DNA from: Zingiber officinale
Taxonomy: Eukaryota; Streptophyta; Magnoliopsida; Zingiberales; Zingiberaceae
Assembly (NCBI RefSeq): GCF_018446385.1
Contig: NC_055991.1
Location: 104,515,712-104,579,711 of the forward strand
Direction: 5' to 3'
Length of the DNA stretch: 64,000 nt
This document shows positions 802 through 46,199 of this stretch, one piece after another (positions within the stretch are counted from its first letter, which is position 1; every line of letters begins with the position of its first letter). Under the pieces are notes generated by a model that worked only from the letters and a program-made list of their open reading frames with translations, made no database searches and was not told the origin of the DNA. The position numbers and the translations under genes were made by a program.

Positions 802-2037
802 TGTTAGGATCGGTTGAGCTAGAGGGGGGGGGGGGGGGGAATGGCTCACTTCTTTCCTGACCAACTTTGTTTTGCACAGCGGAAATCTGAAGGCAACGCT
901 AACTTAGGTATTTACTTGGTATCCACCTCCTCAAGGAGGTGACTAGTCCAAGGATCCACACCACTCACACTCTTTCACTATCAAAAGCCCTCCTTCTCGG
1001 AATCACACCGAAGGTGGAGAAACCTTAACAGAAATACAACTCTCCCTTCTCTCCAAAGTAAGTATCACAAACACTACAAGGAAGAAGAAGAGAAATATTA
1101 CAGCTTTTTACTAGCTTCTTCTTTGCAGTGGGACTTTTGTAAGTGTTGGAGAGGAGCTTGAACCATTTTCTTTGAATCTTGATCACTTGAGAGCTTTTCA
1201 AGGACTTGGAGAGCAATAGAACAGTATATGTTTGTTGTTGTACTGTTTTCCAATTTCTTCCCGTGTTTTAAACGTTGAGAAAACTAGCCGTTTCTCACGC
1301 CACTGTCGCCGTGGATCGATTGAGACTATATCTCAATCGATTCACAAGTATCCGTTGGAAGCCATCGCGTCAAGATCAACGGTGTAGATTCTTTTATTTG
1401 ACTTGGATCGATTGGAGCAGCGTTTGAATCGATTCAGCCACCTTGCTCATGAAATCGTAACCACGTGAATCGATCGTCCGATCGATTCAATACCTTGAAT
1501 CGATCGGCTGATCGATTCAGCACGATTCTGTGCTTCGCACAGAATGTTCACGGATCGATCGACCGATCGATTCAATCCCTTGAATCGATCGGCTGATCGA
1601 TTCAGAACAATTCTGTGCTTCGCACAGAATGTTCACGGATCGATCGGATGATCGATCCAGACGCATTCTGTGCTGCGCAGAACCTTACCAATCGATCAGC
1701 TGACCGATTGACTTACCTTCAATCGATCGGCTGATCGATTCAGAGGTAATCTGCTGCATGAGCATGTTTTTGTGACTTGCAGGAGCTTCTCTTTGCCAAG
1801 AATCCGGTCCCCGACCTTCTTGGACTTCTCTTTTCCTGCATCTGGTCTTCTGACCCGCAAGAACTCTTTTTGCCAAGAATCCAGTCCTCGACCTTCTTGG
1901 ACTTCTCTTGCATCTGGTCTTCTGACCTGCAAGAAACTCCTCCTGCAAACTCACAGTGCATGTTAGTTCCAACATTTTAACCTAAATTTAAATAATTGTC
2001 AACACATTGAAACTTCCAGGGCATGATTGCACCAACA
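802..2037 (-). repeat. 3' LTR of Copia-1
   Basis: The LTR runs from TGTTAGG at 802 to CCAACA at 2037, giving TG...CA ends. It is followed by a polypurine tract on the minus strand (plus-strand ATCTCCCCCTTTTT). Its left end resembles that of the Copia-2 LTR: both have TGTT(A/G)GGA, then GCTAGAG and a run of G. Here the run is about 16 G against six in Copia-2. The body contains a GATC-palindrome array at 1308-1752. Confidence 0.82.
1308..1752. repeat. GATC-palindrome array in the Copia-1 LTR
   Basis: Repeated perfect palindromes have a 10-base arm TGAATCGATC, four variable bases (for example GGCT or GTCC), then the opposite arm GATCGATTCA. Shorter relatives start GGATCGATC. The spacers repeat a TTCTGTG / CACAGAA motif. 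Because the units are self-complementary, both strands read alike and give meaningless open frames. Confidence 0.88.
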
Positions 2038-2295
2038 ATCTCCCCCTTTTTGATGTTTGATAATCTATTTAAATTTAGGCTCGTTTCCAATACAATAATA
2101 GATAATGATTGTAGCTTGCTGAAATAACAATTGCATAATCGCAGTAAGCATTTTAATTTACTGATATAAGCATAAGCAATAAGCATGAATTTCAACATAA
2201 ATCTCCCCCTTTGTCAAAAATCAAAAGCAAATAACTCCCCCTTAATAAGTGCACAAAGCAAAGATGATAAATTCGAGGAGTGCTCCCCCTAAAAC
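2038..2295 (-). other. Repeated polypurine tracts of Copia-1
   Basis: Next to the 3' LTR the plus strand shows four CTCCCCCT-type blocks, at about 2040, 2203, 2235 and 2283; on the element strand these are A/G-rich tracts. The one touching the LTR at 2038 is the likely primer for plus-strand synthesis. Multiplied polypurine tracts are a known trait of Sireviruses. Confidence 0.75.
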
Positions 2296-2437
2296 ACACA
2301 TATATCAACAGAACATAACACATTGAAATGTAGAACCAAAAAGGAGAGCTTAGCAACAAAATATATTATACATTCAAAATGAAAGAGAGTTCACAAAAGG
2401 ACTCCAGAATAACCATCCATACAACAAAGAAAACAGA

Positions 2438-4189
2438 TCATATAGGAACATAAAACTCGATAAGCTCGTCTCCAGGAGGAGTGGGATCAGTAGCAGCAGC
2501 TGGAGTGGACGTAGTAGTCGGAGCAGGAATCGACGCAGAGGCAGGATCAGGAGCATCCTCAGCAGGAGGAACAGGGGCGGTGGATGGACCAGACTGAGAC
2601 GGGTGAAACGTCACCCACGAGCCCACTAGGTCCACGAGCGTATCCAAAGTCTTCTGCATCGAGGCCTGCTGCTGGACCACGGTATCCATCGTGGTACGAA
2701 GACTAGCTATCTCCAAGGTCTGCTCCTCAAGACGAGTGGTAACCGTCTCCTCAAAAGTCGGAGAATCTGGCCCGTGAAACTCCTCCTCGGCCTCATCCTC
2801 CACAGGAGCCACTGCCTGTGCATCCCCTCTGGGACGAGCCCTCGGTCCCTCGCCAAAAGCACGGCCGTCAATCCATCGAACGCCAGCTGGACCACCAATC
2901 AGGCCCGACTTCTTGAAAGAGCAGGAAGAAATCCGAGAGTAAGCCACGGACATGTGCTCCAGCCGTCCCCGGGAGACATCGATCTTCTGGGACTCCAGCC
3001 AATCCGTGATAAGATGCCCGAAAGGCATATGTATCGTCTGCTACACGGGCTGGGTGAAATGGATGATGCAATGAAAGATATTCAGAGGAATGTTGATGTC
3101 TAGAGAGTGACGGATGGCATAGAGAGCAAACATATGAGGCGGTCGTAGAGCGGCGAGGGCACGAGAGACAATCGGGAAAAGGCAATTGATGATTACTTTA
3201 AACAAAGCGGTATTTTCAGCCGATAGCTCAAGAGAAGAGAATTTAGTGACATGAGCATCTGGCCCATCCGGACGTGGACGACCAAAGAAAAATTGATGCA
3301 TAGATGCAATGCTAATATGATCAAAAGGTGGAGGGAGTTCATCGGGAAGAGTTGGATAAAAGACAAATTCATTAGTTGAGGGTAGACATTCAAGATAGGA
3401 TTGTAGAATCTCATAAGAGAAATCTAGGCTCCGTTTTGCTACACGAGTACGATAATTTACACCATCCGAAGTGTGTAAATTATTATAAAATTCGGAGACT
3501 AGACCGATATTGATGTCCCTCTCACATGTCAACAAAGATTCAAGTTTAAAATGTTTGAACCTATTATAGGTATCAAAACAGGATGATCTATAATATTGCA
3601 AGTCCACTGATCTAGGGGGAATAAGTTTAAAGGTGTTTTTGGTGAAGGCTTGTTGCATGGCAGCATTTGGGAACCTAGGATCAGTGGGAGGTTGAGGACG
3701 TGAGGAAGGTACAGATGATCCTTCGCCCGATTCACGAACCTTTTGTTTCTTTCTGTGGAATAGAAAGCAAATGCAAGACATGCAAGAAATGCACATGATT
3801 TGGAAGGATAAACAAAGAATCAAGAGTAATGCAAGTAATGCAATGCATGAGGGATAATGCAATGCACAAAGACACACAAGAAACATATAGATTAGGTCAA
3901 AAATAGGAGCAAAGAGTAGAGCAACAAAGAGTAGAGCAAAGACCTTACCTAGGGTTAGGGTTTGGGGTCCGCATCTCGTGTGAGGACTCAGAGACGAGGG
4001 AAGGAGTTGCCCAGTGCTTCGAGAGAGAGCTGGAAGAGATCGTGGAATAGCTCCCCGTCGTCGGAGAAGCACGCCGGAGTGACGACCGAAACGGGCGAAA
4101 ATGTCGCCTGGGAAATCGCCTAGGGCAAGATCGCGTCGAGAGAGAGAGAAAGAGGAATGAATAGAGTGAGGGAATCGATTCGGATCCAA
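2438..4189 (-). pseudogene. Accessory ORF region of Copia-1 (plant transposon-associated domain), fossil
   Basis: A minus-strand coding region lies between the end of pol and the 3' LTR, where Sireviruses carry their extra or envelope-like ORF. It starts with an M at 4189 and shows the block LVSEFYNNL followed by a GxxYRTRVAK stretch. This matches what I recall of the putative plant transposon protein (Transposase_32-type) domain. Further along it has proline/alanine-rich and acidic low-complexity sequence and a short heptad-like segment. A hydrophobic stretch near residues 75-130 could be membrane-spanning or an accident of the frame. The Copia-2 counterpart at 8391-9854 has the same layout. 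The region is broken. Function is unknown; I do not claim a true envelope protein. Confidence 0.65.
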
Positions 4190-4205
4190 AGGTTTAAGTC
4201 GGGTT

Positions 4206-4695
4206 TTAAGGTCTTGATCGATCTACCGATCGATTGAGAGTAATTGAATCGATCGATCGATCGATTCACAATGCTTCTGTGAAAATCGTAACACACGGCC
4301 GAATCGATCCAAGGATCGATTCAGACGCCTTCTGTGGGAACCAAAAGAGCGTCTAAATCGATCCATTGATCGATCAAGGTATTCTGAATCGATCCGTTGA
4401 TCGATTCAGATGCCTTCTGTGAAAAAACCGAAAAGGGCGTGTTAATCGATCCGTTGATCGATTGAGGTGATTTGAATCGATCCATAGATCGATTCAGATG
4501 CCTTCTGTGAAAATCGCACAAACGGCTGAATCGATCCAAGGATCGATTCAGACGCTTCTGGGGAAAATCGAAGGCCGTCTTAATCGATCCATTGATCGAT
4601 CAAGGTGTTCTGAATCGATCCATTGATCGATTCAGATCCCTTCTGTGGCCAAGTGCGAGTCTCTCAATCGATTGACCAATCGATTGAGAAGCCTG
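4206..4695. repeat. GATC-palindrome array just upstream of the Copia-1 accessory ORF
   Basis: About ten units carry arm TGAATCGATC or AATCGATC, a free 4-base centre (CATT, CGTT, CATA and others) and the reverse-complement arm. The spacers repeat GATGCCTTCTGTG or a near form. The array ends about 17 bases before the accessory ORF start at 4189 on the element strand. The same relative position is occupied by an array in Copia-2. Confidence 0.88.
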
Positions 4696-5262: not shown

Positions 5263-6329
5263 TTAATCAATACAACACATTCCCAATTCTCTCCTAAGAA
5301 AACTAAACTCAACTTCAGGAAGAGGTTTGGTGAAGATATCGGCTAAGTTTGATTTCGATCCAACATAATTTAAAATGATATCACCTCGAGTTACATGATC
5401 ACGGATAAAATGATGTTTAACCTCTATGTGTTTTGTTCGTGAATGATGAACGGGATTTTTGGTTAAGTTGATTGTACTCACATTATCACAAAGAACTTGA
5501 ACATTGTTATAGGTAAGTTTATAGTCTTCTAGAGTATGAGTCATCCACAATAATTGTGATACACACTCTCCCATGGCAATATATTCCGCTTCGGTTGTGG
5601 AGAGAGCTACACAATGTTGTTTTCTACTTGACCAACTTACTAAGGAGGATCCTAGAAATTGACAGCTCCCACTAGTGCTTTTGCGATCCAATTTGCATCC
5701 GGCATAATCGGAATCAGTATAGCCCACTAGGTCAAAAGTTTCGGTTCTAGGATACCAAAGACCAACTTTTTGAGTTCCCTTGAGATAACGAAGAATTCGC
5801 TTAACGGCACTTAAATGTGACTCCTTGGCACAAGATTGATACCTAGCACATATACCTACGGCGAAGAGTATATCCGGTCTACTAGCCGTGAGATAGAGAA
5901 GACTTCCTATAGCACTACGATACACCTTGGAGTCAACTTCTTTCCCCTCAATGTCTTTATCCAACTTCGTATTTGTGGCCATGGGGGTAGATATTTCCTT
6001 TGCATTTTCCATCCCAAATTTCTTAAATAACTCTTTGACATATTTGGATTGATGAATGTAAATGCCTTCTTTTGTTTGTTTAATTTGTAATCCTAGGAAA
6101 AATGTCAACTCACCAACCAAACTCATTTCAAATTCACTCTCCATGTGATTAATGAATTCATTTAGAAAATCTTTATTTGTGGAACCACAAATGATGTCAT
6201 CTACATATACTTGGGCCACAAATATATCATTACCACTATTTTTCAAGAATAAAGTGGGATCAATTTGTCCTCTATGAAACCCTTTTGATACTAGAAAAGT
6301 TGACAACCGTTCATACCAAGCCCGGGGAG
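5263..6329 (-). pseudogene. Copia-1 pol, distal part: reverse transcriptase end and RNase H, fossil
   Basis: Minus-strand copia pol sequence begins at the PRAWYERL block. It contains the catalytic YVDDIICGS block of reverse transcriptase, [13 protein letters not shown], the TDSDYAGC and STTEAEYIA blocks of RNase H, and ends after ADIFTKPLP. The order is standard for Ty1/copia (RT then RNase H). It borders Copia-2 at its upstream end, and pol of the same element is seen again beyond Copia-2 at 17554. Confidence 0.88.
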
Positions 6330-6334
6330 CTTGT
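6330..6334. repeat. Left target-site duplication of Copia-2 (CTTGT)
   Basis: CTTGT directly precedes the TGTTGGGACC end of the left Copia-2 LTR and recurs at 17549-17553 directly after the right LTR. This defines the insertion of Copia-2 into pol of Copia-1. Confidence 0.93.
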
Positions 6335-7961
6335 TGTTGGGACCTTAGATGGCTAGAGGGGGGTGAATAGCCTCTTTGAAAAACACTAAACAACACTTTC
6401 TTCAAGAACTTGTTAGCACAGCGGAATTAGAAAACTAAAACAAGAAAACACAGCACACTAACTCAGAGATTTACGAGGTTCGGGGATAACTTGCCCCTAC
6501 TCCTCGGCGTGTCCGTAAGGTGGACGAATCCTCTTGATCTTTCGGTAGATCACACCCCGGAAGCTATCCGGCTAAAGGATTCTCCTTCTCGGTGGAGTAA
6601 CCTCTCCACAAAGTCTTTAACAGCAGTAAGAAATTTAAGCACAAGACTTACAGTAGTGGCTCAAGTGAAAATGATCAAGGGAAGCTCACAGCCACAATCA
6701 GCGAAGAACAATCAGCGAAGAACAAGCACACTGCTTCAATCTTCAGAGTTTTTCTCCACAGTTTTTCACAGCAAGAGCACAAAAAGCATTGTTTCGAGAG
6801 CCTCTCCTCTCCACCTTCATATGCCTCTCTGCTCTGTAACGGATCTCTGCCAAACCTGCAGCAAATCCCTGCAACCGTCCACGACGTCGCCAATCACACT
6901 TCTTCCTTGTCTGATTGTCTCAGCTCCCACCAATGGCATCCTCGTTTCCACTGGTACCTCTGAGCTTGAACCTATCAACACAAGTCAAGCTGATTTCGAC
7001 CAAACGGTGCCAGCAGATCGCAAGCGAGACGTTGCTACCAAAACTGGTTTGTCCGCAGCGAGACACAGCAAAAGTTTTTGTTGCCTTCTACTAATGATCC
7101 TTAATTTGAATTCACCCAACATCGTAATCAGTAACCTGAAACTTCGAGAAAACTGCAGATGGTTAGAAACGAAATAGGTAAAAGCAATTGCGAATCGAAA
7201 CAATAAGAGAAAGCGCATGCAAACAAGCCATCGTGGATCGGTCGTGACCGATCCACGCTCTATTATCGTCGATCGGTGCGGGGACCGATCGGTGCTGTCG
7301 ATCGGTCCCAAGACCGATCCACCCTTCACGCGACTCGGTAGCGGCCTGATCGGTGCGGGGACCGATCGGGACTCAAATGGATCGGTCCGTAAGGCCGATC
7401 GGTATCCACCGAGCCATCGAGGATCATCGATCGGTCCCCGGACCGATCGGTATCCACTCAGTGTGCTACTGAGTGTTATCTGATCGGTCCCGGACGATCG
7501 ATACACTCGATGTGCTCGAGTGTTCTCGATCGGTCCCGGACCGATCGATACACTGATGTGCTCGAGTGTTGCACGATCGGTCCCGGGCCGTCAGAAGCTG
7601 AATCGATCTGCAGACCGATCCAAAAGCGTGAGTCTCGAGTCAAGCTTCCAAGCTTGCTGTCCTCACCCCGGTCGGAGACGTGCTACCAAACCCTCTCCGA
7701 CCATACATGCCAAGCTTCCACACTTGGACTTCCCAATTGTCCGGTTTCACTCACCAGGACTTTCCAAATGCCTAACATCCAGTTAGGACTCTCCCCGGCT
7801 TCACTCACGGGACTTTCCGTGCCAAGCTCCTCGCTTGGACTTTTCCAATCAGGTTAATCAGTTAACCAAGTCAACCTTGATTAGCAATTAGTCCGAGTTA
7901 ATTTAATATCCGATTCAAACTTAAATCGGTGTCAACATCAAAACAACATCCAGGTCAGACA
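6335..7961 (-). repeat. 3' LTR of Copia-2
   Basis: Starts TGTTGGGACC and is near-identical to 15856-17548 over most of its length. On the element strand it follows a polypurine tract (plus-strand ATCTCCCC at 7962). It contains a GATC/GGTC palindrome array near 7230-7625. The open frame at 6491-7177 on the plus strand is LTR sequence, not a gene. Confidence 0.92.
7230..7625. repeat. GGTC/GATC-palindrome array in the left Copia-2 LTR
   Basis: Repeated CGATCGGTC ... GACCGATCG palindromes with short variable centres, and CACTCGATGTGCTCGAGTG-like spacers. The array is homologous to that in the right LTR at 16770-17190. It uses a GATCGGTC arm where Copia-1 and Gypsy-1 use GATCGATC. Confidence 0.85.
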
Positions 7962-8200
7962 ATCTCCCCTTTTTGTTGTTTGACAACACAATTTAAGTTT
8001 AGATCAGAAAAATTCTCATATCCATAATTTCAGGGAAATTAAGATCTCCCCCTAAGATGGATATAACTCAGTTACTTTTTCTTTTTTTTTATTGATTCAA
8101 AGAGGTCAAATCGTCTCTAAACTTAATTATTTTCTCCCCCTTTGTCAAACACCGAAAAGGTGTAAAATAATGAATAAGACTGACAAGCACCTCCCCCAAT
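7962..8200 (-). other. Repeated polypurine tracts of Copia-2
   Basis: CTCCCC-type blocks on the plus strand stand at about 7964, 8046, 8133 and 8191. The first adjoins the LTR. The arrangement mirrors Copia-1 and is a Sirevirus trait. Confidence 0.75.
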
Positions 8201-8390
8201 AACGCCTCAATCTTAATCCACACAAAAAAAACACGGTATATGAAAAACAATGGCATATGAAACATCATAAGTGTATCATGAATAGTGAAGCATCATAAAT
8301 AGCATGAATATAAGAAACACAGCTAACATCTAGTTCAGATAAATGTATCAAAGACATAGTATCAACAAAACAATCAAAACATAGAGAATG

Positions 8391-9854
8391 TCAGCCAACA
8401 TCCTCATCAAGAGGATCATCTGCAGCATCAGCTGGAAGAGTGGAATCCTGAAGAGGCATGCTGCTGCCTGAGGGTAGCTCGCCCGCGGAGTGCTGAGGAG
8501 GTGGATGGCCGGCCATCCATCCTAGAAATGCCTGATGTGTCGTCAACTGCTGTCTCTGTAGAGTATCGAAGCGCTGATCAATCTGGAGGCGCAGGCCATC
8601 GAACTCTGCAGCCACCATCTCCTCGTGGCGGTCAAACCGGCTCTCCAGTCTGCCAGCGCAGATCTGGATCCTCCTCGCCATATGCAGCAGCAGCAGGAGG
8701 ACGAGCAACCTGTCGTGGAAGTGGTAGCTCACCCAGTGCCCTCCCATCCTTCCACCTAACCGGCCCATCCTGACTTAGGATTCCGGACTTGGAAAACGCA
8801 CGTTTCCCAAGTCGACAATCCTGCCTGACCATCTTCACTATCCTCCCCCTAGAGACGTCAATACCCATGGACTCGAGCCAATCAGTAATTATATGCCCAA
8901 AAGGCATATAGATGTTGTCGCCGCTCGGTTCACTATGGGATATGATAGACATATAGACACTCGACATAATATCAAAATCTAGACGTCGACGTAACCCATA
9001 AAGCATCAGACAGTGATATGGTCGAATTTCTACCAACGGTTTAGAGGTGATAGGTAGAAGACATTGTGTGACAACTTTGAAAAGGATGTAGTCAGGAGCA
9101 GAGAGTCTAAGGGCTGCAAATGTAGGAAAGTCGTCATCTAACTCATCTAAACCATCCAGTCTCGGATGACCAAAAAAGTACTCATAGATTGAGTCAGAAG
9201 AGACATTAAGAGGATGAGGTATGGGTTCAGGCAAAACAGGATAGATGGAGAACACCGTTCCCGAACACAAACGACAACCTAAATACCCAAAGAAGTCAAT
9301 TATGTTGAGATCAACGTTTTGCTTAGCCACTCTTGTCCTATAACTACCATCAGGAGTCTGATGAAGGTTGTTATAGAATTCAGATACTAGATCAAAGTTG
9401 ATGTCCCTTTCTAGAAAAACCAACGAATCGAGCTTGTAGTAGGCAATGGTTTCTAAAATAGAGGGACAAGATTCCTGCATGAACTTCTTATCAACAGATC
9501 GACAAGGGAGTAATTTGAAAGTCCTCTCCTTAAATGATTTTTCAAATTTTTGGTTGGGGAATCTCCCTGAACTAGCCGGTTGAGGTCGGGAGGTAGCAGG
9601 AGCTTTGGACTTGGATTTGGATTTCTCGGTTGGTTCCTTAGAGGTACCCTCACCACTAGTGGGTTTCTTCCTAACCATTTTGACAATGGGAAACAAAGAG
9701 AGAGCACCGGAGCCACCAACAAATAAGAACCGAGACAAACACAACAACAGATGAGAAATGAAAACACAATGCCAAGTTCTATAGAGGTAGGAGTTACCTT
9801 GGAGCCATGGAACTCTCGGCTAGGGCTTCCGAGGGCTGGAGCTTCGGCGTGCAA
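8391..9854 (-). pseudogene. Accessory ORF region of Copia-2 (plant transposon-associated domain), fossil
   Basis: A long minus-strand frame begins near 9747 with a basic, lysine- and proline-rich N-terminus. A domain follows that contains LVSEFYNNL, then YRTRVAKQN and an FFGHPR block. These blocks match the Copia-1 accessory region in the same order (there FFGRPRPDG), so the two are homologous. The C-terminal part is acidic and low in complexity. It lies between pol and the 3' LTR. Related domains are annotated in plants as putative transposon protein; its role in the element is unknown. It has few visible breaks. Confidence 0.68.
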
Positions 9855-9959
9855 GGAGAAGAGAAAAGGGAGGACTGGTGGGGAGAGTCGGCTAGGGTTC
9901 GCGTGAATGAGGGAAAGAAGGGATCGGGAGGTTTTAAGGGTTAAGATAGGTGTACAGTG

Positions 9960-10395
9960 AAGAAAGGATCGGACGGTTGTCCGATCAGAAGGTATCCGAA
10001 GCCCCCTGATCGGTCACCAGACCGATCAGGGAACCTCCTGACCGGTCTGTAGACCGATCAGAAGGTGATCAGTAGCATTCAGCGAAGCTGATCGGTCCCC
10101 GAACCGATCAGGGAACTTCCTGATCGGTCCGTAGACCGATCAGAGATCGATCAGAAAGGTTGAAGAGGGTGAGACTCTCCTGATCGGTCCCTGGACCGAT
10201 CAGATGTGAATCGTCGCGTGAGATCCTCCTGATCGGTCCCTGGACCGATCAGATGTGTCGCGTGAGATCCTCCTGATCGGTCACTGGACCGATCAGTGAG
10301 CCAACAGAAAGCACGAAGATATCTGGAGGACCCCTGATCGGACTGTGGACCGATCAGAGAGTCTCCTGATCGGTCGTGAGACCGATCAGTGTCTG
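9960..10395. repeat. GGTC-palindrome array just upstream of the Copia-2 accessory ORF
   Basis: Units have arm CTGATCGGTC, four free bases (CGTA, CCTG, ACTG, ACCA, GTGA are all seen) and arm GACCGATCAG. Arms are nearly constant while the four-base centre changes from unit to unit. Spacers include TGAGATCCTC repeats. The position matches the Copia-1 array at 4206-4695. Confidence 0.9.
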
Positions 10396-10399
10396 ATAA

Positions 10400-11038
10400 T
10401 TCAGATTTCTGATATCTGAATTCGAGCAACTGATTTCGCAGTCGTTTCTCTCGAGAATTCTGAAAATTCAGAACTTCTCAAATTCAGAACACAGAACTTA
10501 AACATCTACGAACAAGAACATTTCCTAATTGCAAGCTCTGAAAGTCCTAACATTCTAGGTTTTTTTTTTATTAAGTTACAAGTTAGTTTCAGACATTTCA
10601 GAGTTTCAAAACCTGAAATATCCAACCCTGTCATGTTTAGTTTCAAATTTGTCAAAATATATCCTAAATTACTATTCTTACATTATCAACTCATCTTATC
10701 ATTAAAAATACCAATCCAAAGTATCAATCAACACATCAATCATGATTAGATAATTTCTAGACAAAAGTCCAACCAAGATTCCTTGGTTGGAATATATGAG
10801 TAAGATCTAGGAGTCAAATACACATGAATTATGTAATGACCTTCCCCATACTCAATTTATGTCTCTTCAACCTACTTATTCAAGGGATGCATAATACATT
10901 TTGAATAAATTGGTTGTTCCTAGCATCTCACCCCATTTCTAGCAAACAAAAATAATTTGTTAAACCTTATCGTTTGTGTGAGATGTCCCCAAATTGCCCA
11001 AATCAGTTTCCCAATTACTCTTGTCATTTTAATAGTCC
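10400..11038 (-). other. Non-coding internal region of Copia-2
   Basis: AT-rich sequence between the palindrome array and the end of pol. No coding or repeat structure was recognised. Confidence 0.6.
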
Positions 11039-14000: not shown

Positions 14001-14170
14001 GATATATGAATGTCTCCAATTCCTACAACCTTAAGGCTACCATTATTACCAAAAGACACATTACCTCTACTTTTGTTTTGAATGGTAGTAAACAGTGATT
14101 TGTTCCCAGTCATGTGCTTGGAGCATCCACTATCAACAAACCAAGTTGATAGATGCTCCCCCTCGACCAA
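11039..14170 (-). pseudogene. Copia-2 pol: protease/integrase, reverse transcriptase, RNase H, fossil
   Basis: The minus strand reads in copia order. First comes the WFVDSGCSKHMTG protease motif near the N-terminus (about 14130). Next is the GAG-preintegrase block ending in CDACQKGKQTK, then integrase with the LHMDLFD and SDHGGEF catalytic blocks. Reverse transcriptase follows with [21 protein letters not shown] and YVDDIICGS. RNase H ends with HHSRTKHIEVRHH and ADIFTKPLP. The same block order occurs in Copia-1. The region carries a few breaks and is treated as a fossil. Confidence 0.92.
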
Positions 14171-14229
14171 TGCCTACAATACACGAAAAATAGAGGTTTT
14201 AGGTACCCAAATCTTGGGACCTAATGCTT

Positions 14230-15798: not shown

Positions 15799-15840
15799 TG
15801 TTTTGCTCTTCGGGTTGTTAAGCCGAAATGAAGAGCACCA

Positions 15841-15853
15841 GGCTCTGATACCA
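15841..15853 (-). other. Primer-binding site of Copia-2 (initiator tRNA-Met)
   Basis: On the element strand this reads TGGTATCAGAGCC, complementary to the 3' end of plant initiator tRNA-Met. It lies two bases from the 5' LTR end, the standard position for first-strand priming. Confidence 0.9.
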
Positions 15854-15855
15854 CT

Positions 15856-17548: not shown

Positions 17549-17553
17549 CTTGT
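17549..17553. repeat. Right target-site duplication of Copia-2 (CTTGT)
   Basis: CTTGT here matches 6330-6334. Copia-1 pol resumes directly after it. Confidence 0.93.
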
Positions 17554-18676: not shown

Positions 18677-18681
18677 GTTGA
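18677..18681. repeat. Left target-site duplication of Gypsy-1 (GTTGA)
   Basis: GTTGA immediately precedes the LTR start TGTAAAGCCC and is repeated at 28387-28391 after the right LTR end GTTACA. Confidence 0.94.
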
Positions 18682-18803
18682 TGTAAAGCCCGAAAATTCT
18701 TGAAACTGCATTATAAATATCCTAGCAATTTTCTGGAATTTCTAGATATTTTTACGGAATTTTCCGAGAAGCGGAAGTAGCAAAAATAATTAGAAAACGA
18801 AAA

Positions 18804-18883
18804 ACGGCCTAGGCGGGAATTGAACCCGAGACCTATGGTTTAGTGGACAAGGCTAGTAACCAGTGGACCCAGCAGGGCTGTGC
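18804..18883 (-). other. tRNA-like segment in antisense inside the Gypsy-1 5' LTR
   Basis: On the minus strand a T-arm is evident: stem CGGG, loop TTCAATT, stem CCCG, matching the pol III B-box GGTTCAATTCC. About 45 bases before it is a D-arm/A-box-like TGGGTCCACTGGTTACTAG. The acceptor stem does not pair well, so this is a tRNA relic or SINE-head-like piece rather than a working tRNA gene. The same segment is in the 3' LTR (26053-26132) and a diverged copy at 33461-33546. Confidence 0.6.
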
Positions 18884-18941
18884 TGAAAGAAAAGAGAACC
18901 AAATATATTTATATTGGAGTTGGGAACATTCAGCCACTTAA

Positions 18942-18948
18942 TATAAAT
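18942..18948 (+). promoter_or_regulatory. TATA box of the Gypsy-1 LTR promoter
   Basis: TATAAAT lies within TTAATATAAATATG, about 85 bases before the CT-rich leader-like segment. The same motif is preserved in the diverged LTR fragment near 33607. The start of transcription is inferred to be about 30 bases downstream. Confidence 0.5.
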
Positions 18949-19442
18949 ATGAACTTAAGTTGGGTTTGGTTGAGTAATTGGTTCGGCACCTCCTCACCAC
19001 ACGCAACTCTCTCTCTCCCGTTTCTTTCTCTCGGCGCAGCAAACCAAGGCAAAGGGAACACCTAGGGTTCCCTCCCTAGGACCGTGGGTGCATCTTCCGG
19101 CGATGACTCCAACACGAAAAGAGTTCTTCTCCGCGAGAGGAACGCGAGGACGTAAGCGGTTCGTCGAACGAAGCAATTTCGGGAAAAACCTAGCGGATAG
19201 AATCGTAAGAAAACCTTACGATTGAGGTAAGAGACCCCTCACCTGCAGTATAATTGCTTTCGCTTGTTAGATTTGGCGTTAGTTCAGTAGTCTACAGTTT
19301 TCAGTTTCAGGGTGTGCGGTTAGTGCACACCAGGTATTCGATGAAATGCCTAGTTAAAAAGGATGCACCAGTAAGCGTCCTAACAGCATGTAAAATGTAT
19401 TAGAAACATTTTATTTAGCTTAACATCAGTTATCACAGCTAT

Positions 19443-19752
19443 ATGGATCAGATATCCATTGGGTGGGCTCCCACAGTAGCCTCTAGGTTCAGATAACCTA
19501 GCACTAGGTTCAGATAACCTAGAACAGCAAAGTAAGATAAATCAGTACTCAGTATTTTACTTTATTCAGTTGGCACTGTACTTGGATCAGATATCCATGG
19601 GCTGGACTCCCACAGTCGTCCCTAGGTTCAGATAACCTAGTAACCCTGCTAGATTCGGAACTTGCAATCCCGGGTCTCGTAGGGATGCGCTATATGGATC
19701 AGATATCCATGGGCTGGACTCCCACAGTCGTCCCTAGGTTCAGATAACCTAG
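19443..19752 (+). repeat. Cluster of CAGAT-loop hairpins in the Gypsy-1 5' LTR
   Basis: Two hairpin types alternate. ATGGAT-CAGAT-ATCCAT (or a shorter form) stands at 19443, 19583 and 19694. CTAGGTT-CAGAT-AACCTAG stands at 19483, 19504, 19622 and 19734. The stems differ but the 5-base loop is the same. The second half is a direct repeat of about 105 bp. Confidence 0.82.
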
Positions 19753-20517
19753 TAACCCTGCTAGATTCGGAACTTGCAATCCCGGGTCTCGTAGGGATGC
19801 GCGCACAGTAGTACAGTTGCCAGGGCCCCAGCAGCATGTTTAGTATTTTCATCTATTATTATATATAGTTTTCCAAATATACAATCAGTGATGGAAATAC
19901 TAACTCAGTTTCAGTTTCAGTTATTACCTCAGTTAAGCTTCATGATTTGAGTTCATGATCAGCTAGATGCATATGCTTAGTTTCAGTATTTGTTTGTATG
20001 CCATGATCAGTTCAGTACATGTTTGTATGCCATGCCATATTGCCATGCTCAGTTCAGCTTTCAAACAGCATGATTTAAAAACATATTTGCATCGTATGCA
20101 TGATTTAGTGAGGTAGATGGTTTCTTACTAAGCTTATTGGCTTACAGATACTACTTTTCTTATACTGCAGATACCGGTAAAAGAAAAGTGGACTAGCGGA
20201 GGCTGGAGGGCGATGCGGAGATGGTGTGTGTGTGGAACTGGAATAAAAGGTCCTAGGGGACTTAGCAAGTTGAACCTCAGACTCTTTAGCATTCTCTTTA
20301 GCGTTTACAGTTATTTAGTTTTATCACTTTCCTTTTCATGCACTTTAGGTTTGGAATGCACTAAACTATGAAAGATTGGTTTAAATTGCTAGTAACCTTG
20401 TTAGAATGTTAGCTACATGTTAGTAGAAGGTTTATTATGCTTTAGATGTTTGCAGTGTATGAGTTTGGCACGAATCAGTGCTGAAAAAATCAGACTGTCA
20501 CTGCGAAATCAGAAACT

Positions 20518-20935
20518 CTGATCGATCCGTGGATCGATCAGGGGTCCCTGGATCGATCCATGGATCGATCCGTGGCTGATTCCGAGAACAGAAGCTCTCT
20601 GGATCGATCGGTCGATCGATCCAGTCACATGGTATCGCGAACAGAAGACTTCTGGATCGATCGGTCGATCGATCCAAGTTTTCTCCCCGCGAACAGAAGG
20701 GTGCCGAATCGATCACTGGATCGATGCGCTTCATTGGATCGATCAGCTGATCGATCCAAATTATGTCCCGTGCACAGAAGCACGCTGAATCGATCACTGG
20801 ATCGATCGGTGAGCCTGGATCGATCAGCCGATCGATCCAGAGTTATCACCCGAACCCAGTAGCAGTCTGGATCGATCCGTGGATCGATCCAACAGAGAGC
20901 AATCGTTCCAATACAGCTTGGATCGATTGAAAAGC
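20518..20935. repeat. GATC-palindrome array in the Gypsy-1 5' LTR
   Basis: Units have arm CTGGATCGATC or TTGGATCGATC, a free 4-base centre (GGTC, AGCT, AGCC, CGTG), and the reverse-complement arm. Spacers carry GAACAGAAG or GCACAGAAG, the complement of the TTCTGTG spacer seen in Copia-1. Some units use GAATCGATC, exactly the Copia-1 arm. Confidence 0.9.
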
Positions 20936-21159
20936 TTAGGTTTCATCCAAGGAACCTAGCAAGACAGTCTCTCAACCACAGGGGATGTAGGATACACCTT
21001 GTATCCCTTAGAATACATCCTTCAGCATATGTAGAACCCAGAATGGTAAATCAGTTAGCAAAAATTTAATTAGTTCAGTATATCCGCACAGTAGTTAGCT
21101 ACGCAAATCGTAGCGATTCGCCTTACAGCCTAGTACCCAGAAGGTGGGTCGTTACAGAG

Positions 21160-21172
21160 TGGTATCAGAGCC
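21160..21172 (+). other. Primer-binding site of Gypsy-1 (initiator tRNA-Met)
   Basis: TGGTATCAGAGCC three bases downstream of the 5' LTR end, complementary to the 3' end of initiator tRNA-Met, as usual in chromoviruses. Confidence 0.9.
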
Positions 21173-21382
21173 AGGTTCCATACTTCCTACACACACATCA
21201 GCATTGTACCTGCAGCTTCCAAGTAAGAATACCTCTACTCTCTTTATTGTTTCTTGCTTTCTAGTTACAGTTCATGTTTATATGCTTACTGCTTATTAGT
21301 ATATGTTAGTCCTTAAACATGATATCAGTAATTATATAATTGTGATAGTATTAGTTATATATATGTCCTCTATGCCTTTAGT

Positions 21383-23058
21383 ATGGCACGAGGACGCCCA
21401 GCTAGAAGGGCACCAGCCACTGAGCCCCAACATGAGGCAGGCAGTTCAGTGCCTCCTCCAGATCTTACAGCGTTGGTGGCTCAGCTACAGCAGCAGTTAG
21501 CTGAACAGCAGCAGGAGATAGCCGCCTTAAAGGCTAACCAGCAGACTACTCCCCCAGTCACTCCAGTACCGAACCTCACGACTCCAGTAATTATAGAGGT
21601 TCCACCGATCCGACCTCTGACCGACGCCAGCAGTCCCAGCAGGTGAGCCAAGGAAGGAAGCCTACCTAATCGGTGGCAGAGAGTTAAGCGAGAATTTCTG
21701 AGCATTGGCGAACCATGGGATGCCAAGCATGGTTCAAAACATGGAGAGGATAATGGAGCTTACGGGTGGCGGAGCAGGAGAAGGTGAAATGTGCTTCCTT
21801 CTGCCGGGGACGCTAGTATGTGGTGGGAGAGAGTCGAGCGGCAATGAATCGATGTCATGGGTTGACTTGAGAAGGAATTCTTCGAGGAGTTCTTTCACAT
21901 CAGATTCTGAACCGCCTTCTGACGAGTTCCTTGAATTTTGCGGGCAACCTTTGATGGAGGCCGTGAAGAAATTCAACAGTTGGCTCGTTTATGCCCGAGC
22001 TAGTCGGCCAGAGAAGGAGCGAATCGGGTTGATCTTGAAGATGCTCGGACGAGATAGCGATGAATGTGGTGGTGGCGTTCATAGGCCACAAACCACGGAG
22101 GAGCCGGTGAGTAGTGCCTTGACCACGAGCATTATCGCCTGACATCACAGCTGAGCGGTTTCCTGAGCCCAAGGGACGGTGGCTCGGTACTCGTAACCAG
22201 GACATAGCTCAGTGGAAAGGAAGCCGGTGACCCAAAGGAGGCGGTGGGAAACATTTCAGAAATCCCAAGTGTGCTACTTGTGGGAAACATCATCCAGGAG
22301 TTTGCCGCAAGGGTACGCGAGGTTGCTTTGAATGTGGACAGGAAGGGCACATGGCTAAGCAATGCCCGAACAAGAACAGTCTCCCTCAGCCTCAGCCAGC
22401 GCAGCTACACCAGATGTATGCTGTCTTAGATGGTCCACAGATCAGTCAGGGCAGATTAGAAGCCCCCGCAGCTACCACGAATGCCAGAATTTTCTCACTG
22501 ACCAGAGAGGACGTAGCAAATGCCTCGACAGTTGTCACAGGTCAGATCAGTATTTTACAGCATGATGCAACTGTCTTATTCGATACTGGGGCAACCCACT
22601 CTTATGTTTCCAGGGCATTTGCCGGGAAATTAGCAACACCTCCAGAGTTGCTCAATAGTCAGTTCCTGACAACACTACCCTCGGGAGACATCATGGCATC
22701 TACGCACTGGCTCAGAGTAGTGCCAGTCATAATAGCAGACGGAGAACTTTTTGGTGATCTGATAGTGCTAGAAATGACTGACTACGATGTCATCCTTGGG
22801 ATGAATTTTCTGATCAGATACGGCGCTTCTATAGAGTGCCGTAAACAGAAGGTCATATTCCAATCTGAAGCAGGGGTACAGTTTGAGTACATAGGAAAAC
22901 CAAAGAGAGAAGCCAGGAAGTTTCTCTCAGCATTGAAAGCACAACAGCTATTGGATTCAGGATGCAAGGGATTTTTAGCAAATGTAGTCAACACCAGCCA
23001 GGACAAGAACCAACAGCTATCAGAGGCTCGAGTCGTTTGTGACTACCAGTTTTCCTGA
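21383..23058 (+). pseudogene. Gypsy-1 gag and protease region, fossil
   Basis: The region begins at MARGRPARRAPATEP with a glutamine-rich coiled segment (LQQQLAEQQQEIAAL). A gag body follows, then a CCHC knuckle (CFECGQEGHMAKQC) near 22330-22375 and the aspartic protease motif LFDTGATHSYVS near 22570-22605. The MNFLIRYGASIECR block ends the protease. This is standard Ty3/gypsy order. The part is broken. Confidence 0.82.
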
Positions 23059-23099
23059 AGAGCTACGGGGTTAGCACGAGACGGAGATTGAATTTTAGA

Positions 23100-24692
23100 T
23101 AGAGCTCATCCGGCACAAATCCAATTTCCAAGGCACCATCCGCATGGCTCCAGCAGAACAAGGAACTTCAGGGGCAATTACAGGAGCTTCTTGACAAGGG
23201 TTTCATCGCCTAGTCACTCACCATGGGGAGCACCTTGTTGTTCGTGAAGAAGAAGGATGGAAGCATGCGACTATACATAGACTCAGTGCCTTGAACGGTC
23301 ACAATTAAAAACAGGTACCCTCTCCCCAGGATAGATGACCTGTTTGATCAGCTAAAGGGAGCTACAGTGTTCTCTAAAATTGACCTCAGATCAGGATATC
23401 ACCAGGTTAGAGTCAAGAAAGATGATATACCTAAAACAGCTTTCAGAACCAGATACGAACATTATGAGTTCGTAGTCATGCCTTTCGGCGTGACAAATGC
23501 TCCAGCTACTTTCATGGACCTCATGAACAGAGTATTCAGGGAATACTTAGACAAGTTTGTCATCGTGTTCATCGATGACATTCTTATCTATTCAGGTACT
23601 CAGGAGGACCATGCAGAGCATCTGAAGATAGTTTTGCAGATCCTTCAGCAAAACCAGCTGTACGCCAAATTCACGAAATGTGAATTTTGGCTAGACCAGG
23701 TAGCTTTTCTAGGTCACATCATCTCCAAGGATGGTGTTATGGTAGATCCCAGCAAGATAGAAGCAGTAAGTAACTGGAAGAAACCCAGGAACGCCAGTGA
23801 AATCAGAAGCTTTCTGGGATTAGCAGGCTACTACAGGAAATTCGTAGAGGACTTCTCCAGGATAGCCTCGCCACTGACAGCTCTTACCAGGAAAAATAAG
23901 AAATTTCAGTGGACAGAGGACTGCAAGAACAGCTTCAGCGAACTAAAGCGGAGATTGACCAGTGCTCCTATTTTAACTATACCAGAAAACACAGACAGCT
24001 TCGACATCTACAGTGACGCCTCTAAATTGGGATTAGGAGCAGTACTGATGCAGCAGGGCAAGGTGATCGCCTATGCATCCAGACAACTCAAGGATTATGA
24101 GAAGAATTACCCTACTCATGACCTTGAGCTTGCAGCAGTAGTGTTCGATCTCAAAATTTGGAGACATTACTTATATGGAGCTCAGTGTAGAGTGTATACG
24201 GATCATCAGAGTCTGAAGTATTTATTTACTCAGAAGGATCTGAATATGCGACAGCGCAGATGGTTAGAGTTGGTCAAAGATTATGACATAAATATCCTCT
24301 ACCATCCAGGGAAAGCTAATAGGGTAGCAGACGCACTCAGCAGGAAGTCCAGTGCTACCTTATTATCTTTAGCAGCTATGTCACCACCCCTCAGGAAGGA
24401 AGTTACAACCTTTGGTCTCGAGCTTATAGTCGGGCAGCTTTCCACTATGTCCTTAGCACCTACCTTGCTTGATGATATCCACACAGCTCAGGAGCAGGAT
24501 CCTGAAATCCAGAAAATCAAGCAAGGGTTAGCAGAATCAGATAGTGGAGAGTTCAGAGTGTCCGACAGCGGGGTATTGTATTTTGGGGACAGACTCTGTG
24601 TTCCAAATCAGGAGGAGTTGCGGAGACAGATTTTAGATGAGGCTCACAAGACTCCCTATGCGATGCATCCAGGTTCCACCAAAATGTATTAA
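23100..24692 (+). pseudogene. Gypsy-1 reverse transcriptase and RNase H region, fossil
   Basis: The region contains the RT blocks [31 protein letters not shown], the catalytic FIDDILIYS and [10 protein letters not shown]. RNase H follows with [18 protein letters not shown], and [10 protein letters not shown] with VADALSRK after it. The gypsy-type order (RT, RNase H, then integrase) separates it from the copia elements. It is part of a broken element. Confidence 0.9.
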
Positions 24693-24695
24693 GAC

Positions 24696-25895
24696 GTGAA
24701 GAAACATTTTTGGTGGCCCGGGATGAAGCGAGACATCGCTAGATATGTTAGCATCTGCCTCACCTGTCAGAGGGTCAAGGCAGAACATCAGCGACCAGGA
24801 GGAGTCTTGCAACCTATTCAGATTCCAGAATGGAAGTGGGAGGATATCTCTATGGATTTCATAGTGGGACTGCCCAGAACCACGAATGGTTTTGATGCCA
24901 TCTGGGTAATAGTCGACAGGTTGACTAAATCAGCCCACTTCTTAGCTATCAGAATATCCTATTCCATGGAGCAGCTAGCACAGTTGTATCTCAGGGAGAT
25001 CGTCAGGCTGCATGGAGTCCCACGAACCATTATTTCAGACAGAGACAGTAGGTTCACATCACACTTCTGGGAGTGTGTACAGTCAGCATTGGGCATGAAG
25101 CTAAAGTTCAGCACAGCATTCTATCCTCAGACAGATGGACAGACGGAGCGAGTAAATCAGGTACTCGAAGATATGCTCCGAGCTTGTGCCTTAGACTTTA
25201 AGGGAAGTTGGTGCAAATATCTGAGCTTAGCAGAGTTTGCATACAACAACAGCTATCAGGCCACTATCGGTATGACACCTTATGAGGCACTCTATGGGCG
25301 GAGGTGCAGATCACCAATCTGCTGGTATGAGAGTGGTGAACAGAAGGAACTAGAACTTCAGACAGATCTAGTAGCAGACACCACAGCAGCTATACAGCAG
25401 ATCCGCCAGAGGATAGAGACAGCTCAGAGCCGCCAGAAGAGCTATGCCGATACACGGCGCAGACCCTTAGAGTTTTCAGTTGGGGATTCAATGTTCCTCA
25501 GAGTAGCTCCCATGAAGGGAGTAATGCGTTTTGGGAAGAAGGGCAAGCTAAGTCCCAGATACGTGGGACCGTACCTTATCAGTAGAAGAATGGGCAAGGT
25601 AGCATATGAGCTAGAGCTACCACAGGAAATGTCAGCTGTCCACAACGTATTTTATGTCTCTATGCTGAAGAAGCATACCCCAGATGCCACCCAGGTGATT
25701 GAGCCCCAGTCGGTACAGATCCGCGAGGACCTCAGCTATGATAGTCGGCCTATTCAGATAATAGACCGAGCAGTTAAGAAATTGTGGAACAAGGAAGTAC
25801 CATTAGTCAAAGTCAGCTGGCAAAATCACACAGCAGCAGAGGCGACTTGGGAGACAGAAGCCAGCATGAGACAGAAGTACCCAGAATTGTTTTAA
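24696..25895 (+). pseudogene. Gypsy-1 integrase with chromodomain-like end, fossil
   Basis: The HHCC zinc finger region (CLTCQRVKAEHQRPGG) comes first. The DDE core follows with MDFIVGLP, IISDRDSRFTSHFW and FYPQTDGQTERVNQ. After the GPYLISRRMG (GPF/Y-like) module comes a C-terminal segment, VKVSWQNHTAAEATWE, of the chromodomain type found in Tekay/Del chromoviruses. Such chromodomains are known to steer integration toward modified chromatin. It ends with MRQKYPELF. Confidence 0.9.
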
Positions 25896-25930
25896 GTTCG
25901 GGGATGAACTTTTTATAAGGTATGGAGAAT

Positions 25931-28386
25931 TGTAAAGCCCGAAAATTCTCGAAACTGCATTATAAATATCCTAGCAATTTTCTGGAATTTTTAGATATTT
26001 TTACGGAATTTTCTGAGTAGCGGAAGTAGCAAAAATAATTAGAAAACGAAAAACGGCCTAGGCGGGAATTGAACCCGAGACCTATGGTTTAGTGGACAAG
26101 GCTAGTAACCAGTGGACCCAGCAGGGCTGTGCTGAAAGAAAAGAGAACCAAATATATTTATATTGGAGTTGGGAACATTCAGCCTCTTAATATAAATATG
26201 AACTTAAGTTGGGTTTGGTTGAGTAATTGGTTTGGCACCTCCTCACCACACGCAACTCTCTCTCTCCCGTTTCTTTCTCTCGGCGCAGCAAACCAAGGCA
26301 AAGGGAACACCTAGGGTTCCCTCCCTAGGACCGTGGGTGCATCTTCCGGCGATGACTCCAACACGAAAAGAGTTCTTCTCCGCGAGAGGAACGCGAGGAC
26401 GTAAGCGGTTCGTCGAACGGAGCTATTTCGGGAAAAACCTAGCGGATAGAATCGTAAGAAAACCTTACGATTGAGGTAAGAGACCCCTCACCTGCAGTAT
26501 AATTGCTTTCGCTTGTTAGATTTGGCGTTAGTTCAGTAGTCTACAGTTTTCAATTTCAGGGTGTGCGGTTAGTGCACACCAGGTATTCGATGAAATGCCT
26601 AGTTAAAAAGGATGCACCAGTAGGCGTCCTAACAGCATGTAAAATGTATTAGAAACATTTTATTTAGCTTAACATCAGTTATCACAGCTATATGGATCAG
26701 ATATCCATTGGGTGGGCTCCCACAGTAGCCTCTAGGTTCAGATAACCTAGCACTAGGTTCAGATAACCTAGAACAGCAAAGTAAGATAAATCAGTACTCA
26801 GTATTTTACTTTATTCAGTTGGCACTGTACTTGGATCAGATATCCATGGGCTGGACTCCCACAGTCGTCCCTAGGTTCAGATAACCTAGTAACCCTGCTA
26901 GATTCAGAACTTGCAATCCCAGGTCTCGTAGGGATGCGCTATATGGATCAGATATCCATGGGCTGGACTCCCACAGTCGTCCCTAGGTTCAGATAACCTA
27001 GTAACCCTGCTAGATTCGGAACTTGCAATCCCGGGTCATGACCAGTAAGTACAGTTGCAGGGCCCCAGAAGCATGTTTAGTATTTTCATCTATTATTATA
27101 TATAGTTTTCCAAATATACAATCGGTGATGGAAATACTAACTCAGTTTCAGTTTCGATTATTACCTCGGTTAAGCTTCATGATTTGAGTTCATGATCAGC
27201 TAGATGCATATGCTTAGTATTGTTTGTATGCCATGATCAGTTCAGTACATGTTTGTATGCCATGCCATATTGCCATGCTCAGTTCAGCTTTCAAACAGCA
27301 TGATTTAAAAACATATTTGCATCGTATGCATGATTTAGTGAGGTAGATGGTTTCTTACTAAGCTTATTGGCTTACAGATACTACTTTTCTTATACTGCAG
27401 ATACCGGTAAAAGAAAAGTGGACTAGCGGAGGCTGGAGGGCGATGCGGAGATGGTGTGTGTGTGGAACTGGAATAAAAGGTCCTAGGGGACTTAGCAAGT
27501 TGAACCTCAGACTCTTTAGCATTCTCTTTAGCGTTTACAGTTATTTAGTTTTATCACTTTCCTTTTCATGCACTTTAGGTTTGGAATGCACTAAACTATG
27601 AAAGATTGGTTTAAATTGCTAGTAACCTTGTTAGAATGTTATCTACATGTTAGTAGAAGGTTTATTATGCTTTAGATGTTTGCAGTGTATGAGTTTGGCA
27701 CGAATCAGTGCTGAAAAAATCATACTGTCACTGCGAAATCAGAAACTCTGATCGATCCGTGGATCGATCAGGGGTCCCTGGATCGATCCATGGATCGATC
27801 CGTGGCTGATTCCGAGAACAGAAGCTCTCTGGATCGATCGGTCGATCGATCCAGTCACATGGTATCGCGAACAGAAGACTTCTGGATCGATCGGTCGATC
27901 GATCCAAGTTTTCTCCCCGCGAACAGAAGGGTGCCGAATCGATCACTGGATCGATGCGCTTCATTGGATCGATCAGCTGATCGATCCAAATTATGTCCCG
28001 TGCACAGAAGCACGCTGAATCGATCACTGGATCGATCGGTGAGCCTGGATCGATCAGCCGATCGATCCAGAGTTATCACCCGAACCCAGTAGCAGCCTGG
28101 ATCGATCCGTGGATCAATCCAACAGAGAGCAATCGTTCCAATACAGCTTGGATCGATTGAAAAGCTTAGGTTTCATCCAAGGAACCTAGCAAGACAGTCT
28201 CTCAACCACAGGGGATGTAGGATACACCTTGTATCCCTTAGAATACATCCTTCAGCATATGTAGAACCCAGAATGGTAAATCAGTTAGCAAAAATTTAAT
28301 TTGTTCAGTATTTCCGCACAGTAGTTAGCTACGCAAACCGTAGCGATTCGCCTTACAGCCTAGTACCCAGAAGGTGGGTCGTTACA
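25931..28386 (+). repeat. 3' LTR of Gypsy-1
   Basis: Begins TGTAAAGCCC after a purine-rich TATGGAGAAT and ends GTTACA, followed by GTTGA. It pairs with 18682-21156. It repeats all internal structures: tRNA-like segment at 26053-26132, TATA box near 26191, CAGAT hairpins at 26692-27001 and palindrome array at 27748-28155. A stretch near 27037-27060 differs in length and sequence from the 5' LTR. Confidence 0.93.
27748..28155. repeat. GATC-palindrome array in the Gypsy-1 3' LTR
   Basis: Near-identical to 20518-20935, with the same arms and free centres. One late unit has a change in its right arm. Confidence 0.9.
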
Positions 28387-28391
28387 GTTGA
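28387..28391. repeat. Right target-site duplication of Gypsy-1 (GTTGA)
   Basis: GTTGA matches 18677-18681. Copia-1 pol continues from here on the minus strand. Confidence 0.94.
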
Positions 28392-29410: not shown

Positions 29411-29422
29411 TAATTAAGGACA

Positions 29423-46140: not shown

Positions 46141-46199
46141 ATCTTAATCATTGTACCGTTCTGAAAGGACAGACACTAGACCTATCCGAGAACCTTAAT

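Follow-up and report, generated by a model that had tools for sequence, protein, structure and literature searches.

How retrotransposons of two unrelated superfamilies come to carry the same arrays of short palindromes is the question raised by a 64,000-nt stretch of the Zingiber officinale genome (assembly GCF_018446385.1, contig NC_055991.1, positions 104,515,712 to 104,579,711; hereafter the window). Three nested elements carry such arrays in the window: two Sirevirus-type copias, Copia-1 and Copia-2, and one gypsy, Gypsy-1, which we take to be Tekay-like. The arrays occur in two types, GATC and GGTC, according to their half-sites (TCGATC or TCGGTC). At the level of sequence, Sirevirus-type copias and one Tekay-like gypsy lineage have similar GATC-type cassettes, a similarity that extends to the spacers and keeps the same sense, and an exchange between unrelated elements is supported for arrays of this type.

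Palindrome arrays of copia and gypsy elements

Each unit consists of an arm of about 10 bp, exactly four bases (N4) and the reverse-complement arm. Seven arrays on this single plan had been predicted, and the plan proved real: the window contains 44 exact palindromes with 8-bp arms and an N4 gap, 40 of which fall within the seven stretches (a few spanning neighbouring units, e.g. 1491 and 1576), for a chance level in first-order Markov simulations of each array of 0.02-0.05 on average and at most 1 in 500. The arrays are far beyond chance. Counting in addition near-exact matches, defined by 9-bp arms with at most one mismatch and an N4 gap, the minus-strand LTR (long terminal repeat) array of Copia-1 (1308..1752; GATC type, arms (T)GAATCGATC / GGATCGATC) has 7 exact and 9 near-exact matches, 2 (1491, 1576) between neighbouring units, and a second GATC-type array (4206..4695, minus strand; 8 exact, 9 near-exact) occupies the linker between the reverse transcriptase (RT) and an env-like open reading frame (ORF). 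The arrays of Copia-2, also on the minus strand, are of the GGTC type and comprise a worn one in the 3' LTR (7230..7625; 3 exact, 4 near-exact), its duplicate in the 5' LTR (16770..17190; 2 exact, 4 near-exact) and one in the linker between RT and env-like ORF (9960..10395; 7 exact, 11 near-exact, one (10114) between neighbouring units). Gypsy-1, on the plus strand, has a GATC-type array with arms (C)TGGATCGATC in its 5' LTR (20518..20935; 7 exact, 8 near-exact) and its duplicate in the 3' LTR (27748..28155; 6 exact, 8 near-exact).

Because 7230-7625 and 16770-17190 are the LTR pair of Copia-2 and 20518-20935 and 27748-28155 that of Gypsy-1, the seven stretches represent five independent arrays, those of the Copia-2 LTRs being badly worn. 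Each copia thus has an LTR array and a linker array, and Gypsy-1 has one per LTR; the linker arrays (4206-4695 and 9960-10395) lie between pol and the env-like ORF and are not part of an LTR. The two Gypsy-1 copies differ at 2 of 417 positions. Those of Copia-2 are 9.9% different with 55 gap columns within the array, for 0.6% and 5.9% in the flanks, and these many short gaps may reflect either fast turnover or assembly error in palindromes. Units with the GAATCGATC arm of Copia-1 had also been reported in Gypsy-1; they are present (20715, 20796), but as imperfect palindromes.

The scan for arm-N4-arm sites that had been proposed for the whole genome gave 103,372 sites of the GATC type (GATCGATC-N4-GATCGATC) and 156,429 of the GGTC type (GATCGGTC-N4-GACCGATC), for 51 and 0, respectively, with reversed-pattern controls, in an assembly of 3.09 Gb and 211 contigs. 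Labels such as L008 or L020 are used below for loci of this assembly. A wider sample was formed by 20 random 10-kb pieces of it. There, TCGATC/GATCGA half-sites occur 35 times at gap 4 and at most 6 times at any other gap, TCGGTC/GACCGA half-sites 30 times at gap 4 (next, 9 at gap 0), and mixed half-sites at gap 4 once and never. At least one cluster of at least three core units (loose pattern) was found in 14 of the 20 pieces. Other palindrome designs, with CAGTCGACTG or GATCGGTCGACCGA cores and other gaps, were seen in L019 (1379-2546), L030 (6133-6285) and L025 (8732-9071).

LTRs related to that of Gypsy-1 and carrying arrays were found in five of the 20 pieces (L020, L027, L034, L035 and L038). 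These LTR stretches are mostly 70-80% like that of Gypsy-1, with the array at the homologous place, and their arms are mainly of the GATC type in L020 and L035 and mainly of the GGTC type in L027, L034 and L038. A single recent capture by Gypsy-1, which had been named as an observation that would speak against the idea, is ruled out by these five copies with their different arm types. No palindrome was detected in the 3.5 kb upstream of the primer-site word in gypsies L023, L025 and L029, whose coding matches to Gypsy-1 are weaker (34-61%). Of twelve primer-site words in eight pieces, the six beside Gypsy-1-like coding or LTR matches were used (L020, L023 at 4284, L025, L027 at 5827, L029 and L035 at 8075) and the other six omitted; L025 is the weakest, since all that resembles Gypsy-1 in it is a gag/protease match of 44 residues together with a leader match of 66%.

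Relationship between copia and gypsy arrays

Without masking, it is the half-site type and not the superfamily that groups the array scores: those of GATC gypsies lie at 47-143 with copia arrays of the GATC type and at 34-52 with gypsies of the GGTC type, the shared arms explaining part of this. Spacers were therefore also compared with the palindromes masked and against 60 shuffles. Under these conditions, GATC gypsy (17) and GATC copia (45) spacers match with z values of 8.2 and 8.7 in the sense orientation, antisense scores being lower; an earlier spacer run had given a z of 6.4 between gypsy and Copia-1-like LTR arrays. The two types match less within a superfamily, with z values of 4.5 and 2.8 for GATC versus GGTC gypsies and of 4.1 and 2.8 for GATC versus GGTC copias, and no match was found between the masked spacers of GGTC gypsies and GGTC copias (z 0.3 and -0.5). 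Since GGTC arms sit among unrelated spacers in the two superfamilies, whole-array exchange does not explain the GGTC type.

A copia linker array, L008, aligns with gypsy L020 with 163 of 221 columns identical and a score of 143, when a null in which palindromes were kept and spacers shuffled gave a mean of 65 and a maximum of 110 in 300. Gypsy-1 itself scores 126 against L008 (null maximum 102). Long stretches of homology to L003 and L019 place L008 in copia, and the possibility that it is a hidden gypsy fragment was ruled out: its flanks match other copia loci over ca. 1.5 kb, while its matches of at least 150 bp to gypsy loci, like those of the Gypsy-1 LTR to L008, are confined to the array. 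The L008/L020 match is listed as antisense by BLAST, but full scoring gives 143 in sense and 124 in antisense, and sense exceeds antisense in 28 of 30 array comparisons, with one tie and one reverse.

A shared ACAGAAG spacer had been noticed in the window; it is real and stricter than described. In both superfamilies, ACAG, where present, mostly has its first base exactly 22 nt ahead of the centre, read in element sense. Gypsy-1 (4 units of the 5' LTR array) and gypsy L020 have it at this position, as do LTR and linker arrays of copias, including those of Copia-1 (three units in sense and two in antisense in the LTR, 5 units in the linker). In the random pieces alone, ACAG starts 7 times at 22, 6 times at 52 and at most twice elsewhere.

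Phylogenies of six gypsy elements, built from the array and from one LTR region, are in conflict, the LTR tree joining Gypsy-1 and L034 (0.999) and the array tree L034, L027 and L038 (1.000); L027 and L038 are 90% identical in their arrays and 77% in the LTR piece. This indicates that, among gypsy subfamilies, the cassette would have a history different from that of the surrounding LTR. Taken with the spacer match, ACAG at -22 and copia/gypsy homology confined to the array, the tree conflict indicates that cassettes have been exchanged. The exchange between unrelated elements that had been suggested is thus supported by sequence comparison for the GATC type and does not extend to the GGTC type with its unrelated spacers.

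One short copia-type element, L006-L008-L010 (contig C1, ca. 531-540 kb), carries arrays in both LTRs and in the linker. In this element and in L001-L003-L004, also on C1, no RT match was found in the parts examined, which cover all but nearly 1 kb of each. That these short copies keep linker as well as LTR arrays weakens the idea of the linker array as an env promoter only.

Dyad symmetry and possible readers of the arrays

The two halves of a unit do not vary independently. Genome-wide, mixed GATC/GGTC sites number 5,826 + 5,709 = 11,535, for ca. 130,500 expected under independent halves, and at position 9, where C-G (61,882) and G-C (18,679) pairs predominate, mixed sites number 4,993 + 4,978 = 9,971 for ca. 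35,000 expected. As the assembly comprises both haplotypes and many related copies, these sites are not independent events. In within-array permutations, the z values for pairing are 3.4, 7.2 and 5.4 at positions 8, 9 and 10, 1.6 at position 11 and -2.0 at position 5, with no pairing above permutation at positions 12-16; these values overstate independence since the loose core picks up registers between units as well and some elements are represented by both of their LTRs. In aligned arrays, outer pairs altered on both sides keep their pairing in 12/12 cases in GATC gypsies, 2/2 in GGTC gypsies and 74/84 in copias (ca. one third expected), and one-sided changes affect 14/49, 2/35 and 45/304 of the paired outer positions, respectively, in comparisons that share sequences and in which units that do not correspond may have been aligned. 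Over six pairs of gypsies with the same half-site type, divergence amounts to 1-6% in the inner 7-bp arms, 15-51% in spacers, 0-50% in centres and 7-57% in outer arms, figures that exclude the A/G switch between types and that rest on units defined, and alignments anchored, by the arms. Decay of the arms at the pace of the spacers, which had been put forward as evidence against selection, is thus not what is seen among gypsy subfamilies, and conservation merely due to the youth of the LTRs was ruled out, as the gypsy pairs are 21-32% apart in the neighbouring LTR piece. Selection on dyad symmetry, as originally proposed, is supported by the slow inner arms and the compensating outer arms; unselected repair could also match arms.

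The 4-base centre had been described as free, and this is rejected. Among 159 units from 26 arrays with assignable orientation (those of unknown orientation being omitted and some LTR pairs counted twice), centres are skewed and oriented: in element sense, AGCC occupies 13 of 40 gypsy units and 7 of 61 Copia-1-like LTR units, the latter also having CGTG in 19 and AGTG in 12.

The explanation we propose, and to which we give about an even chance of being correct, is that the arrays offer sites to a dimeric host factor and have been traded between elements. The arrays would be cis-acting cassettes of the Sirevirus repeated-motif kind, in whose units a sequence-specific half-site (TCGATC or TCGGTC) is followed, after exactly four bases, by its mirror image, and a partner factor would bind the ACAG box that many GATC units have at a fixed distance upstream. 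Transcription of the element would be driven by a dimeric host factor that binds DNA at many tandem sites, or by two such factors, one specific for GATC and the other for GGTC. Template switching or gene conversion would have transferred the cassette, probably out of copia into gypsy given that copias carry it widely and some gypsies are without it. That inner sequence and spacing are nearly fixed speaks for a dimer recognising a specific DNA sequence.

Several observations weigh against this explanation. The outer positions 8-10 of the two halves match each other, which a dimer site does not need and which fits a stem better, and centres such as AGCC keep one orientation within the element, which is unexpected for a symmetrical dimer. 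The position of the array relative to the promoter is not conserved either, since that of Gypsy-1 lies ca. 1.5 kb downstream of conserved TATA-like boxes and Sirevirus motifs are placed upstream of the TATA box in PMC2829016. Arms and spacers are little contrasted in the Copia-2 LTR pair (10% and 16%) and differ by 12% and 41% in the L017/L001 pair. Finally, the spacers of gypsy and of the Copia-1 linker array alone (six spacers) match with a z of 1.3, not beyond chance.

It is in view of the covarying outer positions and oriented centres, which argue for a stem, that an RNA hairpin cassette has to be considered, in which the transcript would form 10-bp stems with a 4-base loop that help to package or dimerise the RNA, or that incidentally give rise to small RNAs, the exchange being as above. 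The pairing beyond permutation at positions 8, 9 and 10 and the two-sided changes that keep pairs in GATC gypsies and copias would be expected of such stems; four arrays fold at -0.47 to -0.58 kcal/mol per nt, for -0.26 and -0.38 in two control stretches, and a small-RNA excess is described over palindromic maize Sirevirus regions (Bousios et al. 2016, as cited in PMC10760457). Sense G-U mismatches outnumber A-C ones both over ten positions (61 against 40; p 0.046 if independent) and at positions 1-7 (24 against 13; p 0.10), weakly favouring RNA, but the excess is small and comes from related copies. Moreover, the arrays fold about equally in sense and antisense, and stems should allow other loop lengths and inner sequences, when the gap of 4 and the inner 7 bp hardly vary; we regard the hairpin as unlikely. 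Upkeep of the palindromes by mutation without selection, with slippage multiplying the units, template switching within the hairpin rewriting one arm from the other and centres left to drift, would yield matched halves and compensating outer arms whatever the arm sequence, and the Copia-2 LTR arrays do differ far more than their flanks (the 9.9% and 55 gap columns given above), a difference that may partly be assembly error in this Nanopore-based assembly. Such upkeep is quite improbable, as it leaves unexplained the conservation of the inner arms across subfamilies and superfamilies, the ACAG box at -22 outside the stem and the skewed centres. Without any exchange, the composite of palindrome and ACAG would have been acquired independently by copia and gypsy, the same host factors recognising both. 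Arm types are indeed common to both superfamilies, and the GGTC half-site at least, lying among unrelated spacers, looks parallel; the co-linearity of the GATC type over 221 columns, several units and their spacers included and mostly better in sense, makes independent assembly unlikely, and we hold this last alternative to be very improbable.

More broadly, and tentatively, the array may be a mobile regulatory or RNA-structure cassette with a history of its own, traded between copia and gypsy and among gypsy subfamilies, its GATC and GGTC dialects adopted by both superfamilies, independently in the case of GGTC, as though they followed two states of a single system of host recognition. If so, such a contest would have left its footprint in the roughly quarter of a million sites counted in the phased assembly. 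The locus offers two unrelated superfamilies in one genome that share motif, spacing and companion box, with arms that vary naturally yet keep their symmetry, so that the search for a reader narrows to factors or RNA contacts common to copia and gypsy; the arrays offer a good starting point for finding a host factor, or an RNA hairpin, on which both kinds of element would depend. The data also suggest that LTR regulatory blocks can cross the copia/gypsy divide, in which case LTR-based family trees can mislead.

Known palindromic motifs and organisation of the window

Palindromes in Sireviruses, mentioned in the original prediction, are confirmed by PMC2829016, which in 2010 described palindromic repeated motifs (RM boxes) in LTRs, just upstream of env and upstream of the TATA box, called them Sirevirus-specific, classic copia elements being without them, and named no common binding site for a single factor. 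Like the RM boxes, the copia arrays consist of tandem palindromes and are located before env and in the upper LTR half; they differ in the gap of exactly 4, in the fixed ACAG box and in their occurrence in a gypsy lineage as well. In both copias the palindromes are in tandem with dyad symmetry (4 in each of the worn Copia-2 LTR arrays), and the LTR arrays begin ca. 285 nt (Copia-1) and ca. 335 nt (Copia-2) inside the LTR in sense, within the 200-400 bp after the LTR start that characterise RM boxes. The linker arrays end 17 nt (Copia-1) and 213 nt (Copia-2) before the env-like ORFs. Osr elements are those of rice. With CGGTC/GACCG, Copia-2 has the same half-site as the motifs listed for Osr10, Osr8 and Vitis in Table 3 of PMC2829016, and the Copia-1 half-site resembles the motif ACAATCGATTGT listed there for Tnd-1. 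The CGG-CCG core is found in the GGTC arms of Copia-2 and is absent from the GATC arms of Copia-1, as from Tnd-1, the exception given by that paper itself. The Gypsy-1 array resembles an RM array, but its carrier, with the gypsy domains RVT_1, RNase H and SH3_Tf2-1, is not a Sirevirus, and by this measure the array does not belong to the RM boxes. The copia arrays are of a known kind and the gypsy array is the new part.

In maize, Sirevirus LTR palindromes CACCGGACNNNGTCCGGTG are reported, with the same palindrome in 5,231 structured regions of Helitrons (PMC10760457); as here, they are clustered, belong to an abundant copia lineage and are shared with another type of transposable element, but sequence and gap are different and the second carrier is a Helitron instead of a gypsy LTR. 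Transfer of LTR parts between subpopulations of wheat retrotransposons by gene conversion or template switching has been proposed (PMC9744471), which is similar in that LTR parts move between element populations; in the present case the movement would be between copia and gypsy and limited to one array. PMC6911290 and PMC4963935 concern insertion sites and attachment sites. Among the titles and abstract beginnings listed for open-licence papers on palindromes with Sirevirus, chromovirus, Zingiber or Tekay, no such arrays in a gypsy lineage were found.

Copia-1 lies on the minus strand at ca. 802-29422, is truncated and is interrupted by Copia-2 and by Gypsy-1. Its recognisable parts, all on this strand, are the 3' LTR (802..2037, ends approximate), two env-like reading frames (2438..4189; ORFs 3041-4189 and 2438-3028), so called from their position after pol, the later part of the RT (5263..6334; PF07727, E 9e-26 on ORF 5263-6405) and an integrase part truncated at its far end (28387..29422; PF00665, PF13976 and PF22936 on ORF 28382-29401). 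ORF 3041-4189 matches PF20167 with an E of 3e-9, under the curated cut-off of that family, and ORF 2438-3028 had no match in the Pfam search. Copia-2 (6335..17548, minus strand) is delimited inside Copia-1 by the target-site duplication CTTGT (6330-6334 / 17549-17553) and by LTR matches; RVT_2 and integrase were detected by Pfam in both copias and copia gag in Copia-2, whose env-like ORF (8632..9747, minus strand), the next downstream of the linker array in sense, has only a weak Pfam match (E 0.00098). Polypurine tracts AGGGGGAG occur four times on the minus strand near the Copia-1 3' LTR (2040, 2203, 2235 and 2283) and at 8046, 8134 and 8843 in Copia-2, where the tract adjoining the 3' LTR is one G shorter; the whole window has 9 exact octamers on that strand, and both copias thus show the several polypurine tracts of the Sirevirus genus.

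Gypsy-1 (18682..28386, plus strand) is inserted in Copia-1 with the target-site duplication GTTGA (18677-18681 / 28387-28391) and has the primer-site word TGGTATCAGAGC at 21160. Besides the three domains named above, a chromodomain (PF00385) was found at the expected C-terminal place with an E of 0.0073, below the curated cut-off. Its LTR is 2475 nt long, with the array at LTR positions ca. 1837-2254 and the TATA-like boxes near 223 and 261, and contains a 112-bp tandem duplication (19583-19802 and 26832-27037). A search of the window against Rfam gave 0 matches.

The retrotransposon nest is flanked by repeats (1-803, 29423-30456 and 32130-33366) located around an ORF for the N-terminal part of Integrator subunit 3 (30655-32091, PF10189); 203-803 and 29423-30021 are 97% alike, and 1-803 and 32130-32932 are 99% alike. 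Further along, an 11.8-kb tandem duplication (40128-51864 / 51922-63696) is 99.6% identical between its copies and includes duplicated His_Phos_1 ORFs (48745-49233 and 60575-61063).

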